Assembly (NCBI RefSeq): GCF_016859125.1 | Contig: NZ_CP069338.1 | Location: 2,878,501-2,942,500, forward strand | Source: Archangium violaceum | GTDB taxonomy: Bacteria; Myxococcota; Myxococcia; Myxococcales; Myxococcaceae | Length of the DNA stretch: 64,000 nt | Direction: 5' to 3' | In this document: positions 12,798-31,935 of the stretch, in pieces | Layout: every line of letters starts with the position of its first letter | How positions within the stretch are numbered: the first letter of the stretch is position 1 | Made by a program: the position numbers and the translations under genes | Notes under the pieces: model-generated | The model's database searches: none | The model's input: the letters and a program-made list of their open reading frames with translations, nothing else | What the model was told of the DNA's origin: nothing

Positions 12798-15521
12798 ATG
12801 GCCACGAGCGACGAGCTGACGGCAGCAGACCTGGAGCGGTTGTCACGGGCGGAAGCGCCCGACCTCGCGGAGGCCGTCCTGGCCTTCCTCGGCCAACCCG
12901 ACAAGGTCCCCGAAAAGCGCCCCCAGGGAGCCCTCACCTTCGACGGGCTCCTCAACCTCCTGCGCCAGTCCCAGGCCCGCCACAGCGCCGAGGCCCGCCA
13001 CTCCGGCGCCCGCGACGCCTGGCAGCGCTACCTCGCCCAGAAGGACGTCCCGCTCCCCGCGCGCTTCGCCCTCGCCGACCTGCTCGTCTCCCTCTACGAG
13101 CGCAATACCAGCGCCTCCCGCGCCGCCCTCTTCGAGCTCGCTCGCCGCGCCGACCTCCGCTTCGGCCTCTGGGGCGGCCTCAAGCGCATCTACAAGCTCG
13201 CCGAGCAGCGCCACGACGCCGAGATGTTCGGCGTCCTCGCCTGGCGCTTCGACACCGAGCGCTCCAACGCCTACCGCACCCGCGACGTCTCCAAGGGCAC
13301 CCTCACCTATCTCCAGCGCCGCGCCTGGCGCTACCTGCGCCAGCTCGGCCAGGCAGTCCCCGAGCTCTATCCCCAGTTCGCCGTCGAGGTGCTCCGCCAC
13401 TACGAGCCCGATACCTCGTGGCGCTCGTGCTGGGTCTCCAACCACATCTGGGCCCACGAGACGGACAGCTACCACGCCGACTCCTTCCCCATCGAGCCCC
13501 CCAGCGACATGGTGAAGAAGCGCGCCTTCCCCGATGCATGGAAGCGCTCGCCCGATGCCCTCATGCGGCTGCTCGACACCTGCCAGTCGGATCCCGCCGC
13601 CCGCTTCGCCATCCAGGGCCTGCGCAAGGATTTCCCAGACGTCCTGCGCAACAACGTCACCCCCGCCTGGCTCGACAGGCTCGCCCGCCGCCCCCTCGCC
13701 AGCGCCCACGAGTTCCTCGTCGACACCCTCCAGGGCTCGCCCGAGTTCCACCAGGGCAAGCTGCGCGAGCTCGGGCTCCACGAGGCGGTGCTCGCGCTGC
13801 TCGTGTCCCCGAGCAACAAGGCCCGCGCCTACGCCATCGAGTACGCCCGCGCCCACGCGCAGGACCTCCCCGCCGAGCGCCTCGCCGAGCTGCTCGAGAG
13901 CGACTCCTCCGACGTGAAGGCCTTCGCCGCCGCCGTGCTCGAGAAGCGAAACCCGCGCGAGCTCGGCCCGGACTTCCTCGGCCGGCTGCTCGTCCACAGG
14001 CAGACCGCGAAGTTCGCCGCCAAGGCGCTCGAGCAGAGCTTCGACCGCGCCGAGCTCACCCAGAAGTTCCTCTTCGACATGCTCTTCGGCGAGCAGGAGC
14101 AGCTCCAGTGGGCGGCGAAGTACCTCAAGTCCAAATACGGCAAGGGCGAGCTGCCCGTGTCCTTCTGGAAGGCCCTGCTCGATGACGAGCGCCTGGAGGA
14201 GTACGGCAGCGACGTGGAGGAGCTGGCCCTCGAGTCGCTCGGGGCCTTCAAGCCCGCGGACATCGGCGCCGACTGGCTGCTCGACCGCTCCATCCACCCG
14301 AGCTTCGGCGACACCGTCTCCGGCTGGCTCACCGAGGCCGACGCCCTGCCCGGCCTCGACGTGGAGCGCGTGAAGGGGCTCGTCTTCAACGCGAAGTACC
14401 GCGAGGTGGCGCTGAAGCTGCTCGGCAACCGCAAGCTCTTCGCCCCGCGCGACATGGGCATTCCCTGGTTGCTGGCGCTCGCCCGGCGCGCGGACCCGAC
14501 CCTGCACCAGTTCGCCCACCGCTACCTGCTGGAGAACGTGGTGCCCGCGGACTTCAGCGAGTCCGGTGATGCCAACGCGGGCCTGGAGCGCCTCTTCGAG
14601 CTGGCGCTCGGCTCGAAGCAGCCCGCGCCCGTGCGCGCCTTCGCGCAGACGTACCTGCGCTGCCACCACCCCGTCATCGGCCCCGAGCAGCCCGAGTCCA
14701 GATCCTACCAGCTCAAGCCCCGGGCGCCGCGCAACGCGTACACCCCCGAGCGCCTCTGGTCCGCCCTCTTCGATGCCCGCGACGACGTGCGCCACTTCGC
14801 CCTCGCCGTGACGCGCGTGGAGCTGCGCGCCTGGGGCTGGCACACCCGCGTGTACGAGCTCGCCGAGGCCAACGCCAAGGAGGTGCGCAACCTCGCCTAT
14901 GACGCCCTGCTCGACGCGGGCGAGGAGAGCGCCGACAAGCGCCGCACCCTCACCCCCGACGAGTTGGATGCCGTGAAGGTGTTCACCCTCACCGAGAGCA
15001 CCAAGCGCTCCACCCGCGAGGTGGCCGTGGAGCTCATCCGCCGCCACTATGCGCGCCTGGGCGGGCCCGAGCGTCTCGCCTGGCTCATGGAGAGCGCCGA
15101 CCGAGAGGTGGGCCTTTTCGCCATCCGCCTCCTCTGGGAGAAGCACCGCCCGCTCCACCTGCCCGAGGGGTGGAAGCCCTCGGGGGCCACGGAGTCTCCG
15201 GTGGGCGCCACCGAGCGCTTCGCCAACGTGGAGGCCCTGCGCACCTTCTTGCGCCGCATGCTCTTCGGCCTGCCGCCGGGGCGCACCAAGGAGGCCCGCG
15301 AGGGCAACGTGGCCCGGAGGGTCTCGGCCAGCGAGGCCAAGCGCCGCGTGATTGAACTGGTGAGGGATTTGGGACTGGAGGACGAGAGCTTCGCCCGCGT
15401 CGTCGCCCCCGTGCTCGGTGAGTTCACCGGCTCGTTGGCGAAGGGGGAGTGGCAGAGCTGCCTGGCCTCGCTGGTGAGGCTGCGCGCGGCGCACCCCGGC
15501 GTGGAGCTCGGAGGATTCTGA
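12798..15521 (+). CDS. HEAT/ARM-like alpha-solenoid protein, first gene of the retron-associated set
   Basis: The 907-residue protein has no signal peptide or membrane segment. It is made almost wholly of helical repeats of 35-45 residues, for example KRAFPDAWKRSPDALMRLLD, LGPDFLGRLLVHRQTAKFAAKAL and PERLWSALFDARDDVRHFALAV. A block near residue 160 (LTYLQRRAWRYLRQLG, YPQFAVEVLRHYEPD) resembles the solenoid proteins found with WGR and SWIM proteins in bacterial conflict systems. No enzymatic motif is visible, so a scaffold role is likely. Its 3' end (RAAHPGVELGGF) and the following CGTATGG show that it was once directly followed by the WD40/HEAT gene now 1.6 kb away. It probably works with the next two large genes and the retron; that is inferred from order and from the duplicated gene ends. 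Confidence 0.8.
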   Translation: MATSDELTAADLERLSRAEAPDLAEAVLAFLGQPDKVPEKRPQGALTFDGLLNLLRQSQARHSAEARHSGARDAWQRYLAQKDVPLPARFALADLLVSLYERNTSASRAALFELARRADLRFGLWGGLKRIYKLAEQRHDAEMFGVLAWRFDTERSNAYRTRDVSKGTLTYLQRRAWRYLRQLGQAVPELYPQFAVEVLRHYEPDTSWRSCWVSNHIWAHETDSYHADSFPIEPPSDMVKKRAFPDAWKRSPDALMRLLDTCQSDPAARFAIQGLRKDFPDVLRNNVTPAWLDRLARRPLASAHEFLVDTLQGSPEFHQGKLRELGLHEAVLALLVSPSNKARAYAIEYARAHAQDLPAERLAELLESDSSDVKAFAAAVLEKRNPRELGPDFLGRLLVHRQTAKFAAKALEQSFDRAELTQKFLFDMLFGEQEQLQWAAKYLKSKYGKGELPVSFWKALLDDERLEEYGSDVEELALESLGAFKPADIGADWLLDRSIHPSFGDTVSGWLTEADALPGLDVERVKGLVFNAKYREVALKLLGNRKLFAPRDMGIPWLLALARRADPTLHQFAHRYLLENVVPADFSESGDANAGLERLFELALGSKQPAPVRAFAQTYLRCHHPVIGPEQPESRSYQLKPRAPRNAYTPERLWSALFDARDDVRHFALAVTRVELRAWGWHTRVYELAEANAKEVRNLAYDALLDAGEESADKRRTLTPDELDAVKVFTLTESTKRSTREVAVELIRRHYARLGGPERLAWLMESADREVGLFAIRLLWEKHRPLHLPEGWKPSGATESPVGATERFANVEALRTFLRRMLFGLPPGRTKEAREGNVARRVSASEAKRRVIELVRDLGLEDESFARVVAPVLGEFTGSLAKGEWQSCLASLVRLRAAHPGVELGGF

Positions 15522-15528
15522 CGTATGG
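15489..15528 (+). repeat. 40-bp direct repeat, copy 1 (end of the HEAT gene plus start codon of the next)
   Basis: Bases 15489-15528 match 17089-17128 at 38 of 40 positions. The block covers the last ten codons of the HEAT gene, its TGA, and CGTATGG, the last part being the severed start codon of the WD40/HEAT gene. The homology stops right after ATGG. It marks the left edge of a 1.5-kb insertion. Confidence 0.85.
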
Positions 15529-15544
15529 TCCACCCCGAGGGAGC

Positions 15545-16303
15545 ATGTCCATGAGCGGCGCGCTCCCGCCTCTCGTGACGGTGGGCTTCATGCTGGCGGT
15601 GGGTTGCGCCACCTCGCCCTCACTGAACACCTCTGCCCAGCAGCAAAGAGTCGCCCGAGGCCCCTGGTCCGAGGTGCCCGCCATCGAAATGCCCACGGGG
15701 GACACCTCCATCCCCATCGACCTGCTCCGGGACGTGGCCGATGCGCTCCTCGAGCGTCCTGGAGCCAAGGTCTGTGACCCGATGACGAAGCGCCCCATCG
15801 TGGGATTGTCCACCGAGTATTGCTCGACGGTCTATGTCGCTGGCGACCACGATTCACTTTCCTGGCGTGTGACAGAGCCCATCCAGGGAAGCCACAATTC
15901 ATGCCTCCCTCGCTTCGCGGTGAAGGACGACGACCATCCAGCCTCGCAGGTATGGGTCGTGGGATACATCCACAACCATCCGTGTGGTGCGCCTCCCTCC
16001 TCGCGAGACATCAGAGTCTGGCCGACAGATGCGTTCGACCCCTCTGTGGCCATGGCGGAAGTCCGTCTGATTCCAGGCAACCCGGCTCCGGCTACCTACA
16101 AAGACACAGGCATCGAGATGGCCTCGGCGCTGGTCGCGGAGCATCAGGGTGGGACACGTCTCTATCTGCGCTACTTCCCAACGGGCGAACTCCAGCAGTG
16201 GAGCGCGGCAAAGACTGGCTGGGTCACCCTCGGCCGCTGTACTCCAGGCACAGAGGGGCGCCCGCCCCAATGCGATCAACCTCTGCGGCTGCTGCATGAG
16301 TAG
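15545..16303 (+). CDS. Lipoprotein with a JAMM (JAB/MPN) metalloprotease motif
   Basis: The 252-residue protein has a lipoprotein signal (LVTVGFMLAVGC), so it is expected to be anchored in an envelope membrane. About residues 135-160 carry the JAMM signature: WVVGYIHNHPCGAPPSSRDI, giving H143-x-H145-P and S152-x2-D155, the zinc-binding pattern of JAB/MPN+ isopeptidases and related amidases. Flanking Cys residues (CSTVY, SCLPRF, RCTPG, CDQ) suggest disulphides. An exported JAMM protein is uncommon, as most act in the cytoplasm. It is the first of two genes inserted between the HEAT and WD40/HEAT genes. ATG 15545 has GAGGGA upstream; the ATG two codons later is equally possible. A role as a toxin effector is conceivable but not shown. 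Confidence 0.7.
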   Translation: MSMSGALPPLVTVGFMLAVGCATSPSLNTSAQQQRVARGPWSEVPAIEMPTGDTSIPIDLLRDVADALLERPGAKVCDPMTKRPIVGLSTEYCSTVYVAGDHDSLSWRVTEPIQGSHNSCLPRFAVKDDDHPASQVWVVGYIHNHPCGAPPSSRDIRVWPTDAFDPSVAMAEVRLIPGNPAPATYKDTGIEMASALVAEHQGGTRLYLRYFPTGELQQWSAAKTGWVTLGRCTPGTEGRPPQCDQPLRLLHE

Positions 16304-16324
16304 ACGCCAGTCCAGGAGAGAGAA

Positions 16325-16960: not shown

Positions 16961-17037
16961 AGACCTGACTCGAAGCAGTGCGTGCCCCTTCCGCTCCCGC
17001 CGTCTCTCTGTCCACCTGTGCTAAACCCCTCCACTCG

Positions 17038-17121: not shown

Positions 17122-17124
17122 CGT

Positions 17125-20100
17125 ATGGCTTCACTCGCCATCGGCCAATACGAGAAGGTCCGCGCGCTCGCGGCCAACGCGCGTCTGCTGCTCGTCGGGG
17201 GTGCTCGCGCCTCCGTGAACAGCCGCCTCACCGCCTTCGAGCCCGCCACCAACAAGGTGGCCTGGAGCGTGGAGCTTCCCGCCGCTGTCCTTGGGCTCGC
17301 CCTCGCAGGCGAGAGCTGGATCGCCGCCTGCGCGGATGGCACCGTGCGCATCGGCGCGCTCGGCGATGGAGCCGTGCAGCGCGAGCTGAAGGAGGCCCAC
17401 CGCGGCGCCTGCACCGCCATCGCCGTCACCTCGGACGGCACCCGCGCCTTCACCGTGGGCACGGATGGAGCCCTGCGCGCCTGGACGCTCGAGCAGGGCA
17501 AGCGCGTGCACGAATGGCAGGCCTCGCCCCAGCCCCTGCGCGCCGTCGTGGTGGACCCCTCCGGCACCTACGCCGCGTGCGGCGGAGATGACTCCGTGGT
17601 GCGCTCCTTCACGCTCGCCACTGGAGCCCGCCGTGACATGCCGGGCCACGAGGGCGCGGTACGGGCGCTCGCCTTCACCCCGCGCGACGGGCGCCTCGTG
17701 TCCGCTGGCGACGACGGCAAGCTGCGCATCTGGTACCTCGTGGGCGCCGTCGAGTCCGAGGTGCGTGGAGACAAGGACTCCGGCCATGCCGGCGCCGTGC
17801 TCGCCCTCCTCTTCCCGCCCACGCCCTCCGCCGAGCGCGGCGAGGAGGCCGCGGACCGCGTCTTCTCCGCCGGTGACGACGGCAAGGTGAAGGCGTGGCG
17901 CCTGGACGAGCGCCGCAAGCCGCGCACGCTCGATTGTGGCAGCAAGCCCGTGCACGCGCTCGTCTTCGCGCCGCCCGTGAACGCGCGGATGGCCAAGGCG
18001 CAGCTCGGCTCCCTCTACGCGGGCGGCGAGGATCGCACGGTGCGCCGCTTCGAGCTCGACACCGAGGGCAAGCCCGCCACCGATATCGCCACGTATGCCC
18101 ACGGCTTCAACCTGCTGGAGGAGTCCCGCCGGGGCAACCGTCCCAAGCGCGAGGCCGCCGTGCGCGAGGCCGCCGCGCTCGAGGAGCCCGAGGCGCTCGA
18201 CTTCGTCCTCTCCGTGCTCTCCACGGATCGCGAGTACGAGGTGCGCAAGCTGGCCGCCGAGGAGCTGGGCCGGCTCGGCCGCACCGGTGCCCGCGCGAAG
18301 CTGCGCGAGCGGCTGGACGACGAGAACGTGCTGGTGCGCGCCGCCGCGCTGGCGTCCCTGACCGCGCTGGAGAAGGAGTCTCCGCTCGCCGCGCCACGCG
18401 CCGCGCTGGACTCGCGCTACCCGGACACGCGCATCGCCGGTCTGCGCCAGTTGGCCTCGCTCGCGAAGGTCTCGCCGCTGGTGCCAGGCCTCATCGCCAG
18501 CAAGCTGACGGACGCGGATACCAGCGTGGGCCTCACCGCGCTGGACGCGCTGACGCAGGTGTTCCCCCAGGACAGCACCGAGCCACTGAAGACGGCCTTC
18601 GAGCGCGGCCCCGCGCACCTGCGCACCGAGGTGCTCATCCGCGCCACGGGTGCCGGCTGGCTGGGCTCGCCGCGGTTGCAGCCCCTCGTGGCCCGCGCGC
18701 TCGATGACGCGGATGCCGAGGTGCGCCGCGTGGCCTTCACCGTGCGCGTGCTGGAGCGCCGTCCGCTCGCCCACGTGCTGGAGGAGAAGGACGAGGACTT
18801 CGCCCGCGCCGCCCTCGACGTCGCACGGCGGCTCTCCCGCCGCCCCCGTCCCACCGATGGCGAGGCCCGCGCCGCCCGTGAGGCCATGCCCTCCCTCGGC
18901 AAGGCCGGTGAGCCCCTCTCCGAGGCCAGCCTGGAGCCGCTGCTCGCCGCCATGGCCTGCCGCACTCCGGACACCGCCGTGCGGGGCGCTCGGGGCCTCG
19001 CGCAGCTCGGGGATGCCCGGGCGCTCGGCGCGCTGCTGCAGCTCTCCCGCGAGCCCGACGCCGCCATCCGCCGCCAGGCCGCCGACGCTCTCCGCGCCCT
19101 CCAGGACTCCCGCGCCCGCGAACGCCTCGTGTGGATGCTGGACGACGAGAACGCCGACGTGCGCGCCACCGCCCTCGACGCGGTGGTGACGCTCGACACC
19201 GAGGCGCCCCTCTCCAGCGCCGAGGCCGCCCTGCGCTCGGCCTTCGAGGACGTGCGCGTCCGGGGCCTCGACCGGCTCGTGAAGCTCCCGGGCAAGCGCT
19301 CCGAGGCCGCCGTGCACCTGCTCGGCGACGCGCTCGAGGACGAGTCCGCCAAGGTGCGTGACGAGGCCTTCCGCACCCTCTGGGCGTGGAACGAGAAGAA
19401 CCCCCAGGAGGCGCTGGACCGCGCGCTCTCCGGCCGCTTCCCGGATCTGCGCCGCCGCGCCGTGGACGAGCTCGCCGCCCGTCTCAAGGAGGACTGGGCG
19501 CTGGAGCGGCTGAAGAAGACCGTGGGCGACCGCGACGCCGGCGTGGCCCAGGCCGCCTACGAGGCGTGGGTGAAGCACGCGGGCAAGGAGCAGGCGGAGC
19601 CGCACCTCGCCGCCATGGACACCGCGCATGCACCGCTGCGCGCCCTGGCCGCGAAGAACGCCACCCAGGCCCCCGCCGAGGCGGTGCGCTCGCCGCTCCT
19701 CAAGCTGCTGCTGGCCGAGGAGCCCCAGGTCTACCTCGCCGCCATCGAGGCGCTCGACAAGCTCATCAAGAACGAGAACGGCCCCCTGCTCGCGGGCCTC
19801 GGCTCGGGTGAGCTGCCCCTCAAGGTGCGCGCGGCCGAGCTGCTCGCCGCCCGCGGCGCCGAGGACATCATCGAGCCGATGCGCAACCTCCTCACCGACA
19901 AGGAGTTGCAGCGCATCCACCCGCCGGCCTTCCTCGCGCCGCTGCGTCACCGCGCGGCCACGGCCCTGGCCACGCTCGGCTCGCGCCGGCTGCTCTCCTT
20001 CTTCGCCACCACCCTGCTCAAGGACGAGGCCAGCGAGGTGCGCGAGCAGGCCGCCCGGGGCCTCGCCACCGCCAGCCGCCGGGGCGACGAGGGCTACCTG

Positions 20101-23100
20101 CTGGATGCGCTCGGACACTCGGACGTCGCCGTGCGCTCGTGGGCCGCGGATGGCCTGTCGCGCCTCGGCGACACGCGCGCCCTGCCCGTCCTCACCGGAA
20201 ACCTGCGCCACGAGCACCAGCCCATCCGCATCGGCGCCATCCTCTCCTTCGCCGCGCTCGGCCCGGACGGGGACAGTGGCCTCCTGCACGGCCTGGAGGA
20301 CAAGGCCCGCGAGGTACAGGAGGCCGTCTTCGCCATCATCCTCGCTCGCGACCTCCGCGCCTCGCGCCGGGGCGAGCCGCCCGATCTGCTCACCAGCGCC
20401 CTCTCCAGCGCTCGCCCCGAGGTGCGCTACGCCGCGGCCCGTGCGCTGGAGCTGCGCACCGAGACGGAGGCGTACCACGCCCACCTCGTGGAGGTGCTGC
20501 AGCCGCCCCGCCCCGAGAAGGCCGGCGACATGAAGGACTGGCCCGCCGAGAACGAGCGCGCCCGGAACATGGTGGGGCTCGCCGAGGCGCTCGCCAGCGA
20601 CGTGCCCGAGCAGCGCTACGCGGCGGCCCAGGTGCTGCAACTGCGCCACAAGCCGCTCGACTACTTCCGCGAGGCCGCGAAGGTGGCCCGCCCGCGCTCG
20701 CTCGAGGCCCCCTGGAAGCCCGAGACGTCGCCCGTGACCCAGGCCCGGCCAGTGGAGGAGGAGAAGCCCGCGCGCAACTGGCTGCGCCGCCTCTTCTCCA
20801 CCGGCACCGGAAAGGCCGCCACCGCCGAGCCCTCGCCCGAGGCGCTCGTCTCCGCCGAGAAGCAGCACCTGCGGCGGCTCGCCTTCGGCGCCTACGTGGG
20901 CCTCTTGCGACAGGTGTCCTCGGGGGATGACGAGGGCCACCGCGTGCGCCGCGACGCCGTGGACCGCGTGGTGAAGCTCACCCAGGAGGGCCATGCCGGC
21001 ACGCCCGCCGCCGTGGCCGCCCTGCTGCGAGCCCTGGAGGATCCGCACCAACTGGTGCGCAAGGCGGCCCTCTCCGGACTCAAGGAGCTGTACCCCGCCG
21101 ACTCCGACGAGCCGCTGGCGCTCGCCCTGGCCTCGCTCTCTCCGGACGTGGCGCGCGCCGCGCTGGATGAGCTCGCCACCCGCGGGGAGTCCGCGAAGGG
21201 CCGCATCTCCGCCGCGCTCAACTCGCCCCTGGCCGACGTGCGCAAGTACGCCTTCGAGCTGCTCGAGCGCCTCAGCCCTCCGGGCAGCCTGGAGCCCCTG
21301 CTGGCCGCACTCGGCAGCGAGCACGCGGACCTGCGCGTGGGCGTCATCGAGCGCCTCGCCGGTGCCAATGACTCGCGCGTCACCGAGGCCCTCGGCCGCG
21401 CCGCGGGCAGCGAGCACGAGGACCTGCGCCTGCGCGCCGCCGAGCTGCTGGCATGGCGTCAGGATGACCGGGCAGTGGAAGTGCTCGCCGCCTTCCTGCG
21501 CTCGGAGAACGCCGCCGCGGTGAAGCGAGCACAGGAAGCGCTGGCCCGGCTCGGCTCGGCCGTCGCCGTGGGGGCGCTCGCCGCCCGGCTGCGTGTCGCG
21601 ACGGACGCGACCGAGCGTCTCGCCCTCGTGAAGGCGCTGGGACGCACCCGTCGCCCCGAGGCCGTGGACGCCCTGGCGCGGCAGCTCGACGATGAGACGC
21701 CCCTGGTGCGCCACGCCTGCGTGAGCGCGGCCATGGACGTGGCCACCCCGCCCGAGAAGGACGAGAAGGGCGAGCGCAAGCGCGACATGGCCCTGGCGAT
21801 GCGCTTCCTCCGTTCGGCCGTGCGCAGCGCGGACCCGATGGTGCGCAAGGCCGCCGCCACCGAGTTGGAGCAGGGCGACGACGTGGGCCAGGACGAGCTG
21901 CTCACCGGCCTCTTCGCGGACCGGGACGTGACGGTGCGCATGGAGTCGGTGGCGCGCTACGCCTCGCGGGTGATGAACAAGGGCGCGAAGGTGGAGCCAC
22001 TGGAGGAGGTGCTGCTCGGAGGGGCACGCGAGCTGATGCTGCCCGCCGCCGAGGGCGTGGCCTCCCGGGGTCGCACGAGCGCCCTGCGCCCGCTGCTGCT
22101 GTACGTGCGCGCGGGCGAGGAGGGCGAGCGCGAGCGAGCACTGCTGGCCCTGGGCACGCTGGGTGATGCGCGCGCCCTGTCCGAGCTGGAGCAGGTGGCG
22201 GCCGGTGGCACGCCCGAGGCTCCGGTGGAGACGAGCATGGTGGCCGCGGCCCTCGAGGGACTGGGCCGGCTCGCCCCGAAGCTACCCGAGGGCGAGGACC
22301 GCCGCCGCGTCGAGGAGAAGGTGGAGCTCACCGCACTGGAGGCCCGGGACAGCGCGCTTCAGAAGGCCGGCGTCCGGGGACTGCGCTTCATCGGCGGCGA
22401 GCGGGCGCGCTCGCGCCTGGAGACGCTCCTGCGCGACGACGACACCGACAACGAGGTGCGCACCACCGCGGCCCAGGAGCTGGGCAGGTTGGGAGACACC
22501 GCGGCCGAGGGCGCGCTGGCCTCGGTGCTGAACGACTGGGATGACGACCTGCGCAAGGAGGCGCGCAAGGCACTCGACGCGCTCTTCCCCAAGGAGCGCA
22601 TCCGGGTGGAGTTCCTCGCCGTGGCCAGCGATCAGGAGGACATCTCCGAGCCCGCCGCCAGCTACCTGGCCACCGAGGCGGACCCGATGCAGCTCCTGCC
22701 GCGCCTGGCCACGCTGGACAAGGAAGAGCTGCGGCAGCGGCTGCGCCGGGGACTTGTTCGGCGCGCGTCACTGCCCGCTGGAGCGCTCGCGATGCTGCTC
22801 GGCCACGAGAAGCCCTCCGCGCGCGAGGAAGCCGCGTGGCTGGTGGGCGCGCGCACCGGTGAGCAGGACACGACCCGCGCCTGGTCCACGGAGGAGCGCG
22901 CTTCGCTGGGCCGCTCCATCACCACCGCCGAGCGCCGCACCGCCTCCGAGTGGGCCTCCACGCCCGCCCCCAAGCGCGAGCCCCTCGCCAAGGCCTGGGA
23001 GCGGCTGCTGTGGGCGGGCTCTCGCCTGGGCGTGACGGAGCTGGCCAGGGCCGCGAAGGAGATCCTCCAGGGCGGTGAGACCAAGGCCCCCGCCGGGGTG

Positions 23101-23598: not shown

Positions 23599-25442
23599 GC
23601 ACCGCCACCCACCACGCCGTCGAGCTGCGTTACGCCACCACGAGTGACGTGGACGCCATCGCCGACGCCTCGCGCGTCCTGCTCGCCCTGGAGGGCTCTC
23701 GTGGCACCGTGGGCGTGCGCGGCCGGGTCCGCGAGCCCGCCCTCTTCCGCGACGCGCTCGCCGCCACGCTGGGCATCCTCGCCTCGGACCTGCGCTACCG
23801 GGGCAAGGACCGCACCGCGTACCTCGCGTACCTGATGAAGCAGGGCAAGCGCGCCACCGCTCAAATCTGGGAGGCCCAGAAGGCCTTCCTGGAGCAGTCC
23901 CTGGAGGGCGACAAGCAGGCGGACGCGGTGTTGGATCCGCTGCTCACCGTGGACCCGGACCAGGTGTCGCTGGAGGTGTTCTCCCGCGACGAGAGCGCCT
24001 ATGCGCGCCTGTCCTTCGACAACTCGCTCTTCGAGGGCCGCGAGGCCGCGCACGGCTCCACCTTCCTGGACGTGCCGGCGGACCTGCTGGCCAAGGTGGA
24101 CCGGCTGCGCACCTACGTGCCGGTGTCGCTGGAGGCCCACGTGGCCCTGCCCGCGCGAAGCACCGAGCAGGCCCGAGCCCCGCGCAATGTGGAGGTGCCC
24201 CACGCCTGGCTGCGCGGCTTCCTCCAGGTGCAGTCCGCCGCCACCCTGCCCGCGAGCACCTGCACGCTCGCGCCGATCGACCTGTACAACCTGCTCTTCG
24301 CGCTGCGCACCCGGAAGGCGAAGAAGGCACCGCGCGCGCTGCGCTTCGAGCTCGTCCCCGGCGCACAGCCGAGGCTCGTGCTGGAGCCGTGGGAACTGGT
24401 GCTGGAGTGCCACGGGCCGAAGTACCAGGGCAGCACGCCCGCGGTGGTGCGCACCTTCGGGCGGCAGCGGCTCGCGGCCCTCGCGCGACTGCTGCCCCAC
24501 GCCCAGGGCGTGCGCGTGCAGATGCTCGGGCCCGGGCTGCCGGTGTTCTGGGTGATTGATCTCGGTCCCGCCACGCTGACACTGGCGCTCACCGGGTGGA
24601 CGGAGAGCGGCTGGTCCAGCGCCGCGGCCTTCGATGCGCTCATGCCGCGCGCGGTGCCGGACGGGCTCGCGGAGAAGCTGCGCAACCGGCTGCGCACGGA
24701 GGGCCCTCGGACCTTCGAGGAGCTCGCCTCGGGCACGGACGCGCCGAAGGAAGCGGTGCGAGCGGCGCTACAGCTCGAGTGCCTGCGCGGGCGCGTCCTC
24801 TATGACATCGCCCGGGGGACGTACCGGCCGCGCGAGCTGCTCGCCACGCCCGTGGACGAGGCCGTCATCCGCTACGGCAACGAGCGCGAGGAGCGGGCAC
24901 ACCGGCTGCTGGGCGACGGCGGCCCGGGAGCGGGAGAGGTGAAGCTCACCAAGGTGCACGACGTGGTGGGCGTGGGCACGAAGCTCCACGGCGAGGTGGT
25001 GGACCGCGAGGCGGTGCGCAGCTTCTTCCCGAGCTTCCTCCTGGACCTGGAAGGCCGGGTGCGCGAGGCGAGCTGTGGCTGCCCGCCCTACCGGCGCTCG
25101 GGGCTGCGCGAGGGTCCGTGCGAGCACATGATCGCCCTGCGGTTGGCGTATGCGAGGCAGAGGGCACAAGAGGAGGCACTGCGGCAGACGCCGAAGGGCC
25201 GGGCGCTCATCCGCGCGGAGACGCGCTCGTACGTGCGGCGCGACGAGTCCGGCCAGGAGCAGGTGTACCGGGTGTCACTGGACGGCAAGCTGGTGTCGGT
25301 CGAGTGGGGCCCGCGCCTGGGCGAGCAGCGCCACCAGCGGCTGTGGTTCGACACGGACTCGGAGGCGCGCACGGCCTACTTCACACGCCTGGAGTCGCTG
25401 GCGGCCGAAGGCTTCATCGACTCGGTGGGCGGGACGGTGTAA
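23595..25442 (+). CDS. Winged-helix + SWIM zinc finger + WGR-like protein, third gene of the retron-associated set
   Basis: This protein has 615 residues from a GTG start overlapping the previous stop, with GGGAG upstream. The N-terminal 350 residues are a conserved region I cannot name. A winged-helix domain lies at about 355-415 (EKLRNRLRTEGPRTFEELAS, APKEAVRAALQLECLRG). A SWIM zinc finger follows with C494-x-C496-x12-C509-x-H511. The C-terminal 65 residues match the WGR fold (VYRVSLDGKLVSVEWGPRLG to YFTRLESLAAEGF). SWIM and WGR domains bind nucleic acid or poly(ADP-ribose)-related partners in other systems. I recall that retron surveys list winged-helix/SWIM and HEAT proteins as companions of one myxobacterial retron class, which fits the retron that once followed directly (see the 30103-30132 copy of this gene's end). 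Confidence 0.85.
   Translation: MSTATHHAVELRYATTSDVDAIADASRVLLALEGSRGTVGVRGRVREPALFRDALAATLGILASDLRYRGKDRTAYLAYLMKQGKRATAQIWEAQKAFLEQSLEGDKQADAVLDPLLTVDPDQVSLEVFSRDESAYARLSFDNSLFEGREAAHGSTFLDVPADLLAKVDRLRTYVPVSLEAHVALPARSTEQARAPRNVEVPHAWLRGFLQVQSAATLPASTCTLAPIDLYNLLFALRTRKAKKAPRALRFELVPGAQPRLVLEPWELVLECHGPKYQGSTPAVVRTFGRQRLAALARLLPHAQGVRVQMLGPGLPVFWVIDLGPATLTLALTGWTESGWSSAAAFDALMPRAVPDGLAEKLRNRLRTEGPRTFEELASGTDAPKEAVRAALQLECLRGRVLYDIARGTYRPRELLATPVDEAVIRYGNEREERAHRLLGDGGPGAGEVKLTKVHDVVGVGTKLHGEVVDREAVRSFFPSFLLDLEGRVREASCGCPPYRRSGLREGPCEHMIALRLAYARQRAQEEALRQTPKGRALIRAETRSYVRRDESGQEQVYRVSLDGKLVSVEWGPRLGEQRHQRLWFDTDSEARTAYFTRLESLAAEGFIDSVGGTV
25413..25442 (+). repeat. 30-bp repeat, copy 1 (3' end of the SWIM gene)
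   Basis: The last ten codons of the SWIM gene (FIDSVGGTV-stop) recur at 30103-30132 as FIDSASGMV-stop, 24 of 30 bases identical, same orientation. The two copies bracket the 4.7-kb segment with the ATPase, TOPRIM-like, unknown, toxin and immunity genes. Confidence 0.8.
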
Positions 25443-25457: not shown

Positions 25458-26051
25458 TCAACGCCCCTTGCGCTTACGCCGCACCGGACTCCACCCAACC
25501 GGTGCGGCCCGGATTCGTTCGAACTCGTCCACGGCCTTCCGCATCGAGCGCACCACCCCATGAGGCAGCGGTTGCCGCGTTGCCAGCATCCGCGCGAACT
25601 TCTGCGCTGCGGGCTGGCGATCCTCGTCCCGAACCGCATGGAGCCTCTTGTAGTCGGTCTGCTCGTCCGCCTTCCCGTGCTTCAGGAAGTGAACCCAGGT
25701 CTCCATCTGGCGCCGGGGTACCCAGAGGGAGATCCGCTCCTTTCTTCCTCGCGCCGGCTCACCCGCGACTCGCAAGCGCTCGGCGAGCTGCCGCTCCCTT
25801 CCTCCTTCTGGCTGGGTATCCGCATCAATGACCACGAGAAGATCTCGTTGTCCCCCGCCCTTGCGGTTGGCATGAACCTCCGCCGGATAGGCGCCAAGCA
25901 CGTGGTCGTATGCCGAGCCCCTTCCACTCCTGGAGATGTTCGCGGTGATCTGGTCCTCTCTCCATCCACACTGCCGGAGGCACCGATAAGCGAACCGGTA
26001 GTCAGCCACACCTTCACAGAGGACCACCACACGAACGCGTCGGCTACTCAT
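25458..26051 (-). CDS. TOPRIM-like partner of the upstream ATPase (candidate defence effector)
   Basis: The 197-residue cytoplasmic protein has TOPRIM-type motifs: VVVLCEGVADYRFAYR near the start (acidic Glu in CEG) and LLVVIDADTQ (Asp-x-Asp) near residue 70. A middle stretch GRKERISLWVPRRQMETW and a basic C-terminus (SPVRRKRKGR) follow. The start at 26051 overlaps the end of the ATPase gene by 8 bases, so the pair is coupled. ATPase plus TOPRIM two-gene units include OLD-like, PARIS-like and RloAB-like anti-phage systems; which of these it belongs to cannot be decided by eye. It converges on the SWIM gene with 15 bases between stops. Confidence 0.68.
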   Translation of the reverse strand: MSSRRVRVVVLCEGVADYRFAYRCLRQCGWREDQITANISRSGRGSAYDHVLGAYPAEVHANRKGGGQRDLLVVIDADTQPEGGRERQLAERLRVAGEPARGRKERISLWVPRRQMETWVHFLKHGKADEQTDYKRLHAVRDEDRQPAAQKFARMLATRQPLPHGVVRSMRKAVDEFERIRAAPVGWSPVRRKRKGR

Positions 26052-27147
26052 CGACCCACCCTCGCGCGAGCAATTCGGACACGGGCAACCCCGCGCCATC
26101 GCCAGGGACCGTGCGTACCCGTGCTGGCCCACCGCCCTCGCGCTCGAGAAGAAGACCCTGCGTGGGCGCGAGGAAGTCGATCAACCCGGGGTTGTGGGAG
26201 ATGAGCAGCGCCTGGCCACCCGCCTCCGTCTCGTCCATGAGGCGATTGAGCCAGGGTTGTATCTCTCGCGGCGAGAGGAAGCTCTCCGGCTCGTCGATGC
26301 AGAGCGTGCTCGCCTCACCGGAAACCGCGTGCAGCAACGCGTAGAGCACGACCAGCGCGCGCTGCCCCTCGGAGAGCTCGTTGAAGGCGAAAACGACGCG
26401 CCCACGCCGTCGCGGTGAGGCAAACGAGAACTGGAGCAGATGACTGCCACGCCCCTGCTGCTCGAATTCGTAATCCCGGAACCCTTCGAGCACGATGCGC
26501 AGGCTTCGCTTGAGGTTGCGTGAGAACGCCGCACGAGCGTCCTGCATGGCCAGAAGCCAGGAAGCGAAGTTGGACAGGTCTCGTTCCAGGAAGCCTCCCT
26601 TGCCTTCCCGAGCCACGGCATCCAGGGTCTGCGGCACCGGTCGGAAGACCCAGATACGCGCCAACCTGTCCGTCACCCAGGTCAACCCCTCCGACCGGTA
26701 CTTGCTCGGCAGGTTCGACAGCGGCGACACCTTGGACCCTGCCGGAAAGGTGAAGGCAACACCACCAGTCCAGGGCCAGACCTTCACCTCTTCTCCAGAA
26801 AACGAATAGCGCACCTGGTTCTCGCGGAGGATCTCCTCACGCTCGATGAAGCTGTCCTGACCTCGCTCGTGACGGATGGCCAGTCGGTACGTATAGGCTC
26901 CATCCGGTCCTCGCAGCTCGAGTTCGAACGTCTGGATGCTCTTGTCGAGCCAACGGGTTCGCGTCGAATCCGGGAACAGCGACGCCGCGGGGCTACCGTC
27001 AACGACGAGCTGCCGGAGCTTGAACAGGACTTCGAACACCGCGCTCTTGCCTGCACCATTCGGGCCCAGGAGCAACGTGAGCGCGCCCGGTTCGAGCGTG
27101 GCCCGTTCGAAGCAGCGGTAGTTGTCGACGAAGAGGCGCGTAATCAT
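26044..27147 (-). CDS. AAA (RecF/OLD-like, AAA_21) ATPase
   Basis: The 367-residue SMC/ABC-like ATPase opens with LFVDNYRCFE and Walker A GPNGAGKS (about residues 27-34). The signature-like LSEGQRALVVLYALL, Walker B ASTLCIDEPESFLSPREI and the H-loop LLISHNPGLIDFL are in the C-terminal third, the order seen in OLD/RloA/AriA-type ATPases. The middle 150 residues are variable. I chose MITRLF at 27147; an ATG six codons earlier (27165) is an alternative. With the overlapping TOPRIM-like gene it forms a probable two-gene defence cassette. The cassette sits inside the insertion that separates the SWIM gene from the retron. Confidence 0.85.
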   Translation of the reverse strand: MITRLFVDNYRCFERATLEPGALTLLLGPNGAGKSAVFEVLFKLRQLVVDGSPAASLFPDSTRTRWLDKSIQTFELELRGPDGAYTYRLAIRHERGQDSFIEREEILRENQVRYSFSGEEVKVWPWTGGVAFTFPAGSKVSPLSNLPSKYRSEGLTWVTDRLARIWVFRPVPQTLDAVAREGKGGFLERDLSNFASWLLAMQDARAAFSRNLKRSLRIVLEGFRDYEFEQQGRGSHLLQFSFASPRRRGRVVFAFNELSEGQRALVVLYALLHAVSGEASTLCIDEPESFLSPREIQPWLNRLMDETEAGGQALLISHNPGLIDFLAPTQGLLLEREGGGPARVRTVPGDGAGLPVSELLARGWVDE

Positions 27148-27196
27148 CGTGTGTCGTTCCACCATAGTGCTTCTGGTAGGACCCGACCAGAAGCGC

Positions 27197-27880
27197 TCAC
27201 GCTCGCTCGTAGCCGATGCTCCCGACGAAGAGCCTCCGCGTACCGGCTCTCGCGAGGCACCGCGAGCCGCTCGCGGAGAAAGCAAGCGGCTCGAGACCCG
27301 CCGCGTCGAAGAGGGGGCGCCGCTGCTTCGTGCGCCGGTCGAGCACGGCCAGCGTCTCCCCCTCGTCCGTGCGCCAACTGGTGCCAGCGCTCGCGTCGGC
27401 GACCACGACCGCATGCGGCCCGGCCCAGAGCATCGGTAGGTCATACCTCGAGTAGCGGTCATCCACTGTGCGCGGGGCTCGGCTCACCTCTCGTGCCCAG
27501 TGCTGGAAGTCCCCCGGGTGCTCCTCCCGCTGCGCCATCACCATCGCCGTGCCGTCCTGGAGCGACACGTGCAGGGCGTCGCACCGCAAAGCGCGCGCGA
27601 TGATGCCGAGCCGATGCTCGCCCGACGGCCCCGGCTTCGCCAGCAGGTCGAGAGGCGCGGTTTTGACGACGGACCAGCCGCCTCGGCTGGCCCCGAGCGC
27701 AAGAGCCCACCGATCGGAAGTCGCCCCCGTTCCATATTGCATCCTGTCCCATGTCTCGCGTTCGCGCCGCACGTAGGGCGCCGCCACGAGGCCTTCCTCC
27801 GAGCAGAGGTCGCGGATGGCTCGCTCGAGAGCATCGAGGTCGTTGGTCCGGAAGAACGTCGCCTGTCCCCATTCACCCAT
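27197..27880 (-). CDS. Conserved-looking protein of unknown function
   Basis: The 227-residue protein has no signal or membrane segment. Start MGEWGQATFFRTND is chosen because GAAGG lies seven bases upstream; an ATG seven codons earlier has no properly spaced site. It has aromatic-rich strands (RWALALGASRGGWSVVKTAPLDLL, LRCDALHVSLQDGTAMVM) and ends with FVGSIGYERA. It resembles small SMI1/Imm-type immunity proteins in composition and context, but I cannot assign it. It lies 49 bases upstream of the ATPase gene on the same strand and is divergent from the toxin gene, so it may belong to either module. Confidence 0.6.
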   Translation of the reverse strand: MGEWGQATFFRTNDLDALERAIRDLCSEEGLVAAPYVRRERETWDRMQYGTGATSDRWALALGASRGGWSVVKTAPLDLLAKPGPSGEHRLGIIARALRCDALHVSLQDGTAMVMAQREEHPGDFQHWAREVSRAPRTVDDRYSRYDLPMLWAGPHAVVVADASAGTSWRTDEGETLAVLDRRTKQRRPLFDAAGLEPLAFSASGSRCLARAGTRRLFVGSIGYERA

Positions 27881-27970
27881 GGGGGCGCCTTCTATATTCA
27901 TCCCCCCATGCGCGTCACCGCTCGACCAGTCCGTGTGGCTGTTGCACGCGCCACCTGTCAGCATGAAGCC

Positions 27971-29353
27971 ATGAGACCGCTGACATCCGCCGCGCACCTG
28001 GCCGCCGTGCTGCTGCTGCTGGCCTCCGGTGCCCTCGCCGCTGAGGCGGATGATTTCCAGTTGCTCTTGCGGCACAGCGGACTGCCGCAGTCCGTCTACC
28101 TGCCACCAGGCCAGCCCCTCACCCCGGAGAAGGCCCAGGCCCTCTGGCGGGGACTCGTGGACGGCCCCGCCAACCTGAGAACCTTCGCCCCCCGCACCAC
28201 CCTGGCGCGCCTGCTACACGAGTCCTCCGCCACTGGCAGAACCCTGCCCTACGCCGAGTTGCTCGCCCGCACCGAGCGCTTCCGCCGTCTGGTGGTGGCC
28301 CGGCCGGATGGCTACTGCGCCGTGGCGCTCACCGGCACGCCCATCTCCTGGCTGGGACAGCCCACCCTTCAGCAGGGGGAGCTGTACGTGCAGCGTATGC
28401 GCGTGGGCGCATTCCACTTCGACGGGGGTGGCGTCTACTTCATCGTGGACGAGGCCCTGCACAAGCAGGAGTCACCACCCGTGGGCGAACGGGGCGCGGG
28501 AAGAGACCCCGCCACCGCTGCACTGCTGGGTGCGGAGGCCGCACTGGAGGAGATGGCACGGGGACTGGCGGCCCTCCTCACCGAGCCGGCTCGCACCCTG
28601 GAAGGTCTGGCCCACCTGCCCACAGCGGTGTCGGGTCTCATCGCCAGCTCGCCCGAGTACTTCGCCCGCTACGGGGCGATGAACCTGGAGGACCAGATTC
28701 GCGAGGCGGCACGGCTGGCCACCCACGTGCTGACGCTCCAGGGAGGTGCGACTACGGTGGGACTGCGACTGGCCTCCGCCACGCGGCTGCCGGTGCTCGC
28801 CCTCTCGGCAAGGGGCACACTGGCGGTGCACGAGGTGGCCGTACCCGCCGGAGCCGTGACGGCGGTGGTCGGGACCGGAGCTACGCCTATCTCCATCGTC
28901 CTCATGGCGCAGGGCAGCGAGGTGACCGGGGGCAGCAAGTCCTGGCCTCCGCCTCCCGAAGGGCCCGGCCAGTGGATTCAGAAGACGGAGCACATGAGCG
29001 ATGAGGCCAAGCGATTCCAGTCCGAGATGACGGGTGCCCCGGAGGGCTGGGTCTACCGCGTCCGCACAGGCCCCGGACCCAAGGACTACGTGCACTTCGA
29101 CGGCTTCAAGGACGGCGTGCTCATCGAGGTCAAGGGCCCTGGTTACAAGAAGCTCCTCGAGAAAATGCAGGGCAAGCAGTGGTTCGAGGGCGTCGAGGAA
29201 ATGCTCGAACAGGCCGAGCGCCAGGTCAAAGCAGCCCGTGGGACTCCCATCCAATGGCATTTCGCCGAGCGCGAGGTAGCGGACTTCATGCGCGAGCTGC
29301 TCAAGCAACAGAACTCCGGCAGCATCAAGGTCATCCATACCCATGCACGGTGA
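27971..29353 (+). CDS. Polymorphic toxin with C-terminal Tox-REase-5 nuclease domain
   Basis: The 460-residue protein starts with a Sec signal peptide (residues 1-24, LLLLASGALAAE; no lipobox). A variable 270-residue region follows, with a hydrophobic segment near 285-315 (VAVPAGAVTAVVGTGATPISIVLMA). The last 130 residues are the restriction-endonuclease-fold toxin domain: GQWIQKTEHMSDEAKRFQS, VHFDGFKDGVLIEVKG with D377, E386 and K388 in the D...ExK arrangement, then EQAERQVKAARGTPIQWHFAE. It should cut DNA in target cells. The immunity gene follows 12 bases after its stop. ATG 27971 is chosen because the signal peptide begins there. Export route is unknown. Confidence 0.85.
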   Translation: MRPLTSAAHLAAVLLLLASGALAAEADDFQLLLRHSGLPQSVYLPPGQPLTPEKAQALWRGLVDGPANLRTFAPRTTLARLLHESSATGRTLPYAELLARTERFRRLVVARPDGYCAVALTGTPISWLGQPTLQQGELYVQRMRVGAFHFDGGGVYFIVDEALHKQESPPVGERGAGRDPATAALLGAEAALEEMARGLAALLTEPARTLEGLAHLPTAVSGLIASSPEYFARYGAMNLEDQIREAARLATHVLTLQGGATTVGLRLASATRLPVLALSARGTLAVHEVAVPAGAVTAVVGTGATPISIVLMAQGSEVTGGSKSWPPPPEGPGQWIQKTEHMSDEAKRFQSEMTGAPEGWVYRVRTGPGPKDYVHFDGFKDGVLIEVKGPGYKKLLEKMQGKQWFEGVEEMLEQAERQVKAARGTPIQWHFAEREVADFMRELLKQQNSGSIKVIHTHAR

Positions 29354-29365
29354 GGACTCACTCGA

Positions 29366-30097
29366 ATGAAGGAAACATATTACGTGGGAGCCTACTGGCT
29401 ATCCCGGCGGGAGTCGGCCGAGACCTGCGCCCAGCGTGCGGAGTCCTTCTTCCGTCTGCTGGCCTCGTGCGACCCGAGCCTCGCTCACTGGTTCAGAAAA
29501 GGCCGCACCCTCGAAGAGGCGCTGAAGCATCGCCTTGAACCCGATGCCGCGAGTCTCGCGAAGGTATTCCACCAGCAAGCGCAGAAGGAAGGACGCTTCG
29601 CCGACGACGGCTTCTCGCTGAGGGGCTGGAATGGGCAGACCCACGAGGCAGCGAGCACCCTGTCACTCCTCTGTGGTGATGCATCCGTCTGGGTCTCCAA
29701 CTCGTGCCTGTTCAACCCGCCAGAGGAAGGCCCCGCCGAGGAGCGCGTACTCCAGACCTCCGTGCTTGCCCAGATACTGCGCGCCATGGCCATGGCCTTC
29801 GAACCCGAGTGGGGCATCGCCACCTCTTCTCAGCATCGGAACCTGGTGGCGCCGGAATCCGCCAGGGCCGGCACCTTCGTCGGCTGGCTCATGTACTTCT
29901 CCCACCGGCGCGGCCCACTGCCCCCCCTGCCTCCGCCCGTCCACATCGAGGCCGTGGAGAACAAGGGCACGCTCGTCATCCTCACCCCCGAGCGTTTCAC
30001 CGCCTCCAACCCCGCCCACGTGGAGCTGGCGCGCGACGTGGCCGAGCGCCTCGCCCAGGCCGGCCTGCTCACGCCCCTGCGCCCGTGGGAGACCTGA
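29366..30097 (+). CDS. Imm52-family immunity protein
   Basis: The 243-residue cytoplasmic protein has the family's opening pattern MKETYYVGAYWLSRRESAETCAQRAESFF, then LASCDPSLAHWFRKG and LRGWNGQTHEAASTLSLLCG, and EWGIATSSQHRN. Imm52 proteins are the usual partners of Tox-REase-5 toxins, and here the gene follows one by 12 bases. It presumably binds and blocks the nuclease domain. Its stop is followed within six bases by a copy of the SWIM gene's tail, which places the right end of the inserted segment here. Confidence 0.85.
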   Translation: MKETYYVGAYWLSRRESAETCAQRAESFFRLLASCDPSLAHWFRKGRTLEEALKHRLEPDAASLAKVFHQQAQKEGRFADDGFSLRGWNGQTHEAASTLSLLCGDASVWVSNSCLFNPPEEGPAEERVLQTSVLAQILRAMAMAFEPEWGIATSSQHRNLVAPESARAGTFVGWLMYFSHRRGPLPPLPPPVHIEAVENKGTLVILTPERFTASNPAHVELARDVAERLAQAGLLTPLRPWET

Positions 30098-30102
30098 CGG
30101 CC

Positions 30103-30132
30103 TTCATCGACTCGGCATCCGGGATGGTGTAG
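30103..30132 (+). repeat. 30-bp repeat, copy 2 (orphan end of the SWIM gene upstream of the retron)
   Basis: Ten codons (FIDSASGMV-stop) match the end of the SWIM gene at 25413-25442, in the right phase and with its own stop, but without the gene. This is the scar showing that the retron once followed the SWIM gene directly. Confidence 0.8.
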
Positions 30133-30184: not shown

Positions 30185-30465
30185 GCGCGAGTGGTCGAGA
30201 GAGGTCCGGAAAGCATCAGCCTTCGCGCCTCGAGCGCGGGAGCGGCGCTGCGCCGCTCTGGAAGCAATGCAGGACACTCTCCGCAAGGTAGCCTGTTCTT
30301 GGCTCTCTCCCGGTAGAGGGGCATGGGCCCCTCGGGGAGCTGAGCCAACGACGCAACCGCCGTTTCCCCAAGGGGCCCATGCCCCTCTACCGGGGAGAGC
30401 CGGTGAGGCTACCGTGCCCCAGGTGAGCAGGTGGTGGATTCCAGGCCTCTCTCGACCGCTCGCGC
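30185..30465 (+). ncRNA. msr-msd: Retron msr-msd RNA (Mx162/Sa163 type)
   Basis: This is the template/primer RNA of the retron. The terminal inverted repeat a1 (30185-30206) pairs with a2 (30444-30465) over 22 bases with only G-U wobbles. Downstream of a1, AGC trinucleotides at 30212 and 30218 are candidates for the branch guanosine. msr hairpins follow, including a perfect 7-bp stem 30241-30247/30251-30257. The msd part is one long hairpin: outer stem 30287-30294/30406-30413, inner stem about 36 bp (30301-30338 with 30364-30401, one bulge) and a loop of about 25 bases. If cDNA starts next to a2 and stops near the msr/msd border (about 30281-30286) its length is about 160 nt, matching the large myxobacterial msDNAs. 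It ends 45 bases before the reverse transcriptase start. Confidence 0.92.
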
Positions 30466-30510
30466 CCCCCCGTCCCCCATGACGTCTCCTCGCCGTACCG
30501 AGGTGCCGCG

Positions 30511-31935
30511 ATGACCGCGAAGCTCGAGACGTTCGTCCCCGCAGCGGCCCCCGTGGTGGTGCCCGCCCCCGCCCCTGTTCCCGCCTCCGCCAACGTGGTG
30601 GCCCAACGCGAGGTGAGCCAGCGCGAGGAGCAGGCACGGCTGGCTCGCTGGAAGGCGATTGAAGAGGCCGGCGGCCAGGAGGCGTGGGTCGAGGCCGAGC
30701 TGAAGGCCAAGGGGCTCGCGCCCGAGCACGAGGATCCGAGCGGCCTCTCCGAGAAGGAGAAGGCGGCCTGGAAGGAGAAGAAGAAGGCAGAGGCCGCCGA
30801 GCGCCGCGCGTTGAAGCGCCTGGCGTGGGAGGCGTGGCGCACCGCGCACATCAACCACCTGGGCGCGGGGGTGCACTGGGAGGAGGCGGGAGGCCCGGAC
30901 AAGTTCGACCTGAAGGACCGCGAGGAGCGGGCGAAGGCGAACGGATTGCCGGAGCTGGAGTCGGCCCAGACGCTGGCGAAGGCGCTGGGGCTGAGCGTGG
31001 CGAGGCTGCGCTGGTTCAGCTACCACCGGGAGGTGGACACGGGGACGCACTACCGCAGCTGGGAGATTCCCAAGCGGGACGGTGGGAAGCGGACCATCAC
31101 CTCGCCGAAGAAGGAGCTGAAGCAGGCGCAGCGATGGGTGCTGGCGAACGTCATCGAGCGGCTGCCGGTGCACGGAGCAGCGCACGGCTTCGTGGCGGGG
31201 CGCTCCATCGTCACCAACGCGCTGGCGCACAAGGGCGCGGACGTGGTGGTGAAGATGGACATCAAGGACTTCTTCCCGTCGGTGACGTGGCAGCGGGTGA
31301 AGGGCCTGTTGCGCAAGGGAGGGCTGGCGGAGGGCTCGGCGACGCTGCTGGCGCTGATGGCCACGGAGGCGCCGCGCGAGGTGGTGCAGTTCCGCGGGAA
31401 GACGCTGTACGTGGCGAAGGGGCCGCGCGCGCTGCCGCAAGGGGCGCCGACGTCACCGGGAATCACCAACGCGCTGTGCCTGCGTCTGGACAAGCGGCTG
31501 TCGGCGCTGTCGAGGCGGTTGGGCTTCACGTACACGCGCTACGCGGACGACATGACGTTCTCCTGGCGCAGGAGCCGGGGGAAGACGGAAGCGCCAGTGG
31601 CGGTGCTGATCGCCCGGGTGGAGAAGGTGCTGGAGGCGGAGGGCTTCCGGGTGCACCCGGACAAGACGCGAGTGATGCGTCCGGGGAACCGGCAGGTGGT
31701 GACGGGACTGGTGGTGAACGAGGCCCCGAAGGGCCAGCCCGGAGCGCGAGTGCCGCGCGAGGTGCTGCGCCAGTTGCGAGCGGCGCTGCACAACCGGGAG
31801 AAGGGCAAGCAAGGCAAGGAAGGCGAGACGCTCGAGCAGCTCAAGGGCATGGCCGCCTTCATCCACATGACGGATCCGGCGAAGGGCCGCGCGTTGCTGG
31901 AGCGGCTCGCCGCGCTGGAGAAGCGCGAGGCGTAA
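30511..31935 (+). CDS. ret: Retron reverse transcriptase (Mx162 type)
   Basis: The 474-residue protein makes the branched msDNA from the upstream msr-msd RNA. The first 170 residues are a Pro/Ala-rich start and a charged helical stretch (EKEKAAWKEKKKAEAAERR), the N-terminal extension seen in myxobacterial retron RTs. The RT core follows: motif X as NALAH (236-240), VVKMDIKDFFPSV, PQGAPTSPGITNALC, the catalytic YADD (344-347) and motif Y as VTG (397-399). Together the X and Y motifs separate retron RTs from group II intron and other RTs. GAGGTG lies six bases before the ATG. It is now separated from its likely protein partners by an inserted segment. Confidence 0.95.
   Translation: MTAKLETFVPAAAPVVVPAPAPVPASANVVAQREVSQREEQARLARWKAIEEAGGQEAWVEAELKAKGLAPEHEDPSGLSEKEKAAWKEKKKAEAAERRALKRLAWEAWRTAHINHLGAGVHWEEAGGPDKFDLKDREERAKANGLPELESAQTLAKALGLSVARLRWFSYHREVDTGTHYRSWEIPKRDGGKRTITSPKKELKQAQRWVLANVIERLPVHGAAHGFVAGRSIVTNALAHKGADVVVKMDIKDFFPSVTWQRVKGLLRKGGLAEGSATLLALMATEAPREVVQFRGKTLYVAKGPRALPQGAPTSPGITNALCLRLDKRLSALSRRLGFTYTRYADDMTFSWRRSRGKTEAPVAVLIARVEKVLEAEGFRVHPDKTRVMRPGNRQVVTGLVVNEAPKGQPGARVPREVLRQLRAALHNREKGKQGKEGETLEQLKGMAAFIHMTDPAKGRALLERLAALEKREA

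Follow-up and report, generated by a model that had tools for sequence, protein, structure and literature searches.

A type XIII retron of Archangium violaceum, split by inserted toxin genes, with a predicted PCNA-like clamp fold in its SWIM protein

The 64-kb stretch of Archangium violaceum DNA analysed here (the window) carries a complete retron that is a further member of an already known class, split by inserted toxin genes. Four reading frames are open on the forward strand (12798-15521, 17125-23598, 23595-25442 and 30511-31935), and all four products were hit by type XIII models of PADLOC-DB 2.0.0, namely HEAT-ARM_XIII twice, SWIM_XIII and RT_XIII. Both HEAT-ARM_XIII matches are nearly full length, SWIM_XIII covers residues 8-522 of 615, and we regard the assignment to type XIII as practically certain. 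The parts of the system are one reverse transcriptase (RT), one retron RNA, a SWIM protein, an all-HEAT scaffold and a WD40 plus HEAT scaffold. Third-position GC contents (GC3) of the four genes, in the order given, are 0.95, 0.93, 0.94 and 0.93, which is host-like and unlike the inserted cargo. The initial annotation had described three large genes followed by a complete retron, and the open frames, the GC3 values and the complementary RNA arms bear this out; the GTGA overlap that it had noted was found as well, the TGA of the giant gene lying within 23595-23598, where the SWIM gene starts. The published class with HEAT and winged-helix-SWIM companions that it had mentioned agrees with the type XIII matches of all four proteins. 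Retron types were reportedly classified by Mestre and colleagues in 2020. Type XIII retrons combine RT_XIII, SWIM_XIII and both HEAT-ARM_XIII proteins with an RNA beside the RT, as in the window, which differs from the models by the cargo between SWIM and RNA. As an overall explanation, a resident type XIII retron with a clamp-fold SWIM protein and two scaffolds, split by cargo, is likely. In the literature searched, PMC11953036 was the only paper found to contain both retron and type XIII, and its accessible text names the type once, merely as a PADLOC prediction in Variovorax. The same literature yielded no mechanism for type XIII retrons, nor any mention of the clamp fold, the template arrays or the Watson-Crick outer stem described below.

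The first scaffold, HEAT/ARM alpha-solenoid protein 1 (907 aa; 12798..15521, + strand), matched PDLC02921 over residues 6-903 with 1022 bits, and its AF2 model is nearly all helix (pLDDT 87.7, pTM 0.58); searches of Pfam and NCBIfam gave no match. The second, a giant protein of 2157 aa (17125..23598, +) with a WD40 propeller and a HEAT solenoid, matched PDLC02919 over profile positions 5-1970 of 1972 with 1565 bits, and Pfam detected WD40 and HEAT_2 domains. The gap between the two genes (window 15522-17124) is a second, very variable site of the retron locus, ranging from 22 bp (genome G003) to about 31 kb (G035); it measures 27-31 kb in G035-G038 and 23-25 kb in G053 and G068, and in G002 and G006 it holds gene pairs that read as toxin-immunity-like, without Pfam support.

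The RT (474 aa; 30511..31935, +) was matched by 62 PADLOC families, RT_XIII (PDLC02956) being the best with E 1.5e-159. Pfam RVT_1 matched with E 8.7e-21, and the solved structure nearest by sequence is the Ec86 RT (E 1.4e-37). The protein carries the usual RT motifs NALAH, YADD and VTG. Immediately upstream lies the msr-msd RNA (30185..30465, +), recognised by its a1/a2 helix, a CAGC site, an msd hairpin and covariation. The a1 arm (30185-30218) and the a2 arm (30432-30465) are 34 nt long and 82% complementary, the CAGC branch-type site occupies 30217-30220, and the msd hairpin (30309-30394) has 30-nt arms at 30309-30338 and 30365-30394 that are 97% complementary. Among 49 homologous RNAs, 44 of the 90 predicted pairs showed two-sided compensatory change. 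This retron is predicted to make msDNA. According to the accessible text of the review PMC6868368, CAGC is the priming or branch motif of Mx162 and Sa163. These retrons, from Myxococcus and Stigmatella, share with the window the CAGC branch site and an extended RT N-terminus, a likeness at the level of features, and they are reported as vertically inherited (accessible parts of PMC6868368 and PMC8867640, which name no companion genes). The window retron was probably inherited vertically as well. Downstream of the RT, on the reverse strand, a 1056-aa frame (32592-35762) gave a weak MORN-repeat match alone in Pfam.

The outer part of the msd stem is both highly variable and almost strictly Watson-Crick paired. 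In the 49 aligned RNAs, its mean entropy is 1.2 bits per column, against about 0.05 at the base, and out of four possible Watson-Crick pair types, 3.6 occur per position. Of 980 cells in this distal stem, 961 are Watson-Crick, one is G-T and 18 are other combinations; G-T occupies 63/931 and 36/637 cells in the helices found only in the RNA. The basal stem, which is also part of msDNA, keeps G-T (98/980 cells, from two invariant pairs), so that a DNA-level ban on G-T would be limited to the outer stem. Near absence of wobble pairs in a variable helix would be the trace left either by selection on a DNA duplex or by two-sided template-switch mutation.

On the latter reading, the stem sequence is neutral and a perfect hairpin is all that is needed, quasi-palindrome template switching turning one-sided mutations into two-sided ones and clearing G-T in the process. 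We consider this quite possible, though somewhat short of probable. It is favoured by the perfect arms, 20-38 nt long, of hairpins detected in the SWIM-RT interval, and by stem divergence, which on average stays close to that of four-fold synonymous sites (0.286 against 0.279 in the 0.25-0.3 bin), so that variability alone is no proof of selection. Two observations speak against it. Stem divergence exceeded the synonymous rate at p<0.01 in 11 of 84 close pairs, although pairs share genomes. Moreover, 20 representative stems contain 25 palindromic hexamers, compared with 13.5 in mononucleotide, 16.0 in dinucleotide and 11.3 +/- 3.5 in GC-matched controls, the last drawn from locus sequence, and palindromic tetramers likewise exceeded three different controls; as these stems are still related, we treat the excess as a lead. 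No exact match of the window stem core was present in the viral contigs searched. A perfect hairpin was absent from 13 of 25 distant loci scanned. In two planctomycete relatives, the short interval from SWIM to RT contains a long hairpin (L275:11813-11910 and L284:11852-11962), perhaps a smaller retron RNA.

Several relatives provide one RT with more than one template. In two Hyalangium genomes (G039 and G041), the interval from SWIM to RT contains a tandem of two complete RNAs, and a copy of the SWIM 3'-end stands before the second. Two RNAs were also found in G009, G095 and G091, the last assembled from overlapping contigs, where a SWIM-end copy between the RNAs was not seen. At least two RNAs are thereby present in 5 of the 65 family genomes carrying the RNA, G010 and G092 having been left out of this count because their contigs break inside the RNA. 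With locus L233, where one RT has two RNAs, and L249, the total is seven genomes with 2-3 different hairpins per RT. At L249 (11998-14360), three RNAs with different hairpins accompany one RT, one before and two after it. Within the four RNA pairs measured, 85-86 of 87 positions of the 5' part and 25-28 of 28 in the loop are identical, and the arms agree at only about half of their positions. Stem types cross species borders: copy 1 of G039 and the single copy of G040 differ at 6 of 28 positions, and a second type is shared by copy 2 of G039, copy 1 of G041 and G042, with 7-11 of 28 differing. Our reading is a birth-and-death process among tandem templates.

The association of the proteins with each other and with the RT is widely conserved. 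Among 96 family genomes, RT_XIII (E <= 1e-90) and SWIM_XIII were each found in 69 and the giant and HEAT protein 1 each in 65, these last two in an identical set of genomes. The initial annotation had proposed looking in related genomes for SWIM and HEAT genes lying away from retrons. From 195 genomes of the phylum we collected 114 strong SWIM_XIII places (E <= 1e-100), and in 103 of them a same-strand RT_XIII lies within 2 kb downstream. Four more, all from the genus of the window, have their RT_XIII 3.8-60.7 kb away, and seven have none on the same contig. Five of these seven contigs (G004, G010, G020, G091 and G092) stop in or just past the retron RNA, that of G005 extends 13.2 kb without an RT, and G156 lay outside the inspection of contig ends. 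In a second collection of 78 loci, many from the same organisms as the first, the RT alignment begins 10-863 bp past SWIM in 70; the remaining eight comprise two Archangium loci with an insertion and six that run out of contig. This collection takes in Sorangium and Planctomycetes such as Gemmata, with unchanged gene order, and its nearest named loci are from Archangium (93-94% for SWIM). At the locus of laboratory Myxococcus xanthus (L217), SWIM precedes the RT by 404 bp, and the giant and HEAT genes lie upstream. The conserved SWIM/RT linkage and HEAT/giant co-occurrence support the earlier proposal of one multi-component system, whose parts may assemble into one complex.

Type XIII modules also occur in other arrangements. 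Of 13 RT domain places in the genome of the window, the type XIII model (E <= 1e-90) fits only two. The second of its type XIII retrons (L202, own genome C1:1243500-1258500) encodes a WGR-propeller protein of 474 aa, a WGR-HEAT protein of 1024 aa, a SWIM protein of 548 aa and an RT of 505 aa; its RNA was not found by the window-type motif. In G091 and G092, WGR is fused to the giant. The reshuffling in L202 and this fusion suggest a joint action of the modules. Seven Myxococcus-type genomes (genus g19) have a weaker SWIM homologue (E about 1e-52 to 1e-56). In the one of these examined (L208), this protein, SWIM_XIII-like as in type XIII (E 1.5e-60), is followed by a large DUF6493/DUF7824/DUF7825 protein, with neither RT nor retron RNA motif within the 15 kb read. 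The association between SWIM and retron is not absolute.

A SWIM/DUF6493 relative without a retron fits the view that these genes form a housekeeping or developmental module, for example one for repairing the DNA of large myxobacterial genomes, and serve no role in phage defence. The host-like GC3 of the retron genes and the occurrence of RT_XIII in 27/27 genomes of genus g19 and 16/16 of g5 point the same way. This view is weakened by the toxin-immunity cargo recurring at the locus and by the description of retrons as bacterial immune systems in the accessible part of PMC12548924; on balance, we find it rather doubtful.

The SWIM protein (615 aa; 23595..25442, +) matched PDLC02972 over residues 8-522 with 529 bits, its gene sitting within a longer ORF starting at 23241. 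It is predicted to combine a PCNA-like clamp fold, a winged-helix region, a SWIM zinc finger and a WGR-like tail. The zinc finger has the form CxC..CxH (C494, C496, C509 and H511), and Pfam SWIM was matched in 42 of 44 relatives. Residues 40-342 (23712..24620, +) adopt a two-domain fold resembling the PCNA sliding clamp in a predicted structure, a single AF2 model built from 44 sequences. Identity to PCNA clamps is 9-16%, and the protein differs from them by its fusion to winged-helix, SWIM and WGR-like parts and by extra helices at 71-104. The 44 members matched 17 Pfam families, none of them a PCNA family, and a PDB sequence search gave no match at E up to 1. Helices 227-245 and 289-302 are conserved and basic, helix 48-63 has no net charge, and of the would-be ring-lining helices only some are basic. 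The model makes a clamp fold very probable; that the protein also functions as a clamp is conceivable, though somewhat short of probable. A WGR-like end had been proposed earlier. Its support is moderate: the modelled C-terminal domain (residues 541-604; 25215..25406, +) has four strands and a helix, and hhalign aligned it without gaps over 61 columns to WGR domains of related systems (E 8e-4, probability only 25%), but Pfam WGR matched 3 of 44 relatives (best E 0.037) and not the window protein.

The two-domain fold and the conserved basic helices would also suit a decoy or sensor of phage replisomes, which would imitate a sliding clamp and be triggered by an engaged phage clamp loader or clamp-binding polymerase and not by damage to msDNA. 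Concordantly, 24 of the 50 viral matches listed carry the names PCNA, DnaN, polymerase III or beta clamp, and the majority of the remainder are unnamed or uncharacterised. Such a decoy leaves the variable Watson-Crick outer stem and the multiple templates unexplained, and we judge it unlikely.

We tentatively favour a mechanism in which msDNA serves as bait and the SWIM protein as clamp. The RT would make msDNA, whose hairpin duplex would be the bait, and RT-msDNA together with the propeller and HEAT scaffolds would keep the clamp protein inactive. A phage, or a nuclease that it sets off, may then cut, modify or displace the bait, upon which the clamp-SWIM-WGR protein would be freed or loaded onto replicating DNA and stall replication. 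The outcome would be abortive infection that spares neighbouring cells. In some relatives, multiple templates per RT may supply multiple baits. The bait idea is favoured by the Watson-Crick outer stem, the excess of palindromic hexamers and the 2-3 hairpins per RT in seven genomes. No catalytic effector domain was found in the proteins of the system, and the killing step is therefore a guess. For the class as a whole, it is a speculative and rather improbable extension that type XIII retrons form a clamp-based multi-bait immunity, in which a PCNA-fold SWIM effector loads DNA and the RT serves an array of templates whose hairpins replace one another through tandem duplication and loss, so that the double-stranded DNA baits shown by a cell keep changing.

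In the window, four unrelated genes (25458-30097) separate the SWIM gene from the retron RNA. A small gene (25458-26132, -) gave a weak DUF3226 match below the cut-off (E 0.0037), and it overlaps an AAA_21/OLD-like ATPase gene (26044 to about 27147, ORF to 27462, -; Pfam AAA_21 E 3.6e-20, PADLOC best HEC-01A E 3e-30). GC3 across 25458..27462 is 0.73-0.76, compared with 0.93-0.95 in the retron genes. These are followed by a Tox-REase-5 polymorphic toxin gene (27971..29353, +, the likely start by reading of an ORF from 27500; PF15648, E 1.4e-11) and an Imm52 immunity gene (29366..30097, +; PF15579, E 1.6e-87). Just beyond, 30100..30132 (+) repeats the 3' end of the SWIM gene (25410..25442, +) at 26 of 33 positions, the second-best matches to this 33-mer on both strands of the window being 22/33. 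The earlier claim of a SWIM-end copy in front of the RNA is thus upheld. That the retron once directly followed SWIM, also claimed, is in keeping with relatives outside the genus, in which SWIM adjoins the RNA; by eye, the window sequence past the copy is similar to their junction. Nine family genomes from other genera were fetched in which both genes share a contig. In seven of them the SWIM-to-RT gap between alignments is 395-414 bp, just room for the RNA; in the other two, both Hyalangium, it is 722 and 812 bp. The tandem RNAs with a SWIM-end copy in Hyalangium offer a natural origin for the window remnant: SWIM end and RNA may have been duplicated together, the first RNA later lost, and cargo then have entered.

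All six genomes of the genus of the window have an interruption between SWIM and RT. The distances between model matches are 5.4 kb (G000), 4.5 kb (G002), 3.8 kb (G006) and 60.7 kb (G003); in G004 the interruption is about 1 kb, two contig ends overlapping exactly within the RNA, and in G005 at least about 49 kb (13.2 + 35.7 kb) if both contigs are right. The SWIM-end copy is kept at 24-26 of 33 nt in G000, G002 and G005, and by eye only its last dozen or so bases remain in G003, G004 and G006. G000 contains Tox-REase-5 and Imm52, G002 has relatives of the two, its toxin match being in two pieces, and in G005 Imm52 is accompanied by no more than a short toxin match. G006 has a LysM and a pentapeptide-repeat protein, toxin-immunity-like by reading, and G003 large NRPS-like genes and a MoxR/DUF5682/VWA cluster. 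This cluster of MoxR-type AAA, DUF5682 and VWA_CoxE genes (L130/L131, G003 C1 about 160903-167363) lies inside the 60-kb split. The window genome holds 18 copies of Imm52, which 59 of 96 family genomes carry, and as common cargo it was left out of the retron's own parts. That the toxin-immunity and ATPase genes are working retron parts is very improbable: the retrons of G002 and G005 likewise have relatives of the window Imm52 beside them, but Imm52 is widespread, the site has other contents in G003, G004 and G006, and SWIM has an RT within 2 kb in 103 of 114 cases. On the favoured reading, toxin-immunity and ATPase genes came to lie between SWIM and RNA in Archangium and left the SWIM 3'-end copy at the old junction.

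In Archangium genomes, the locus can come apart into its protein and RT halves, in one by about 60 kb, with both genes intact. For the class, the predicted clamp fold of the SWIM protein is a concrete lead, suggestive of a DNA-loading effector and of a connection with replication. That arrays of different templates accompany one RT and that G-T is avoided in the outer hairpin suggests that what is read is the msDNA duplex itself.
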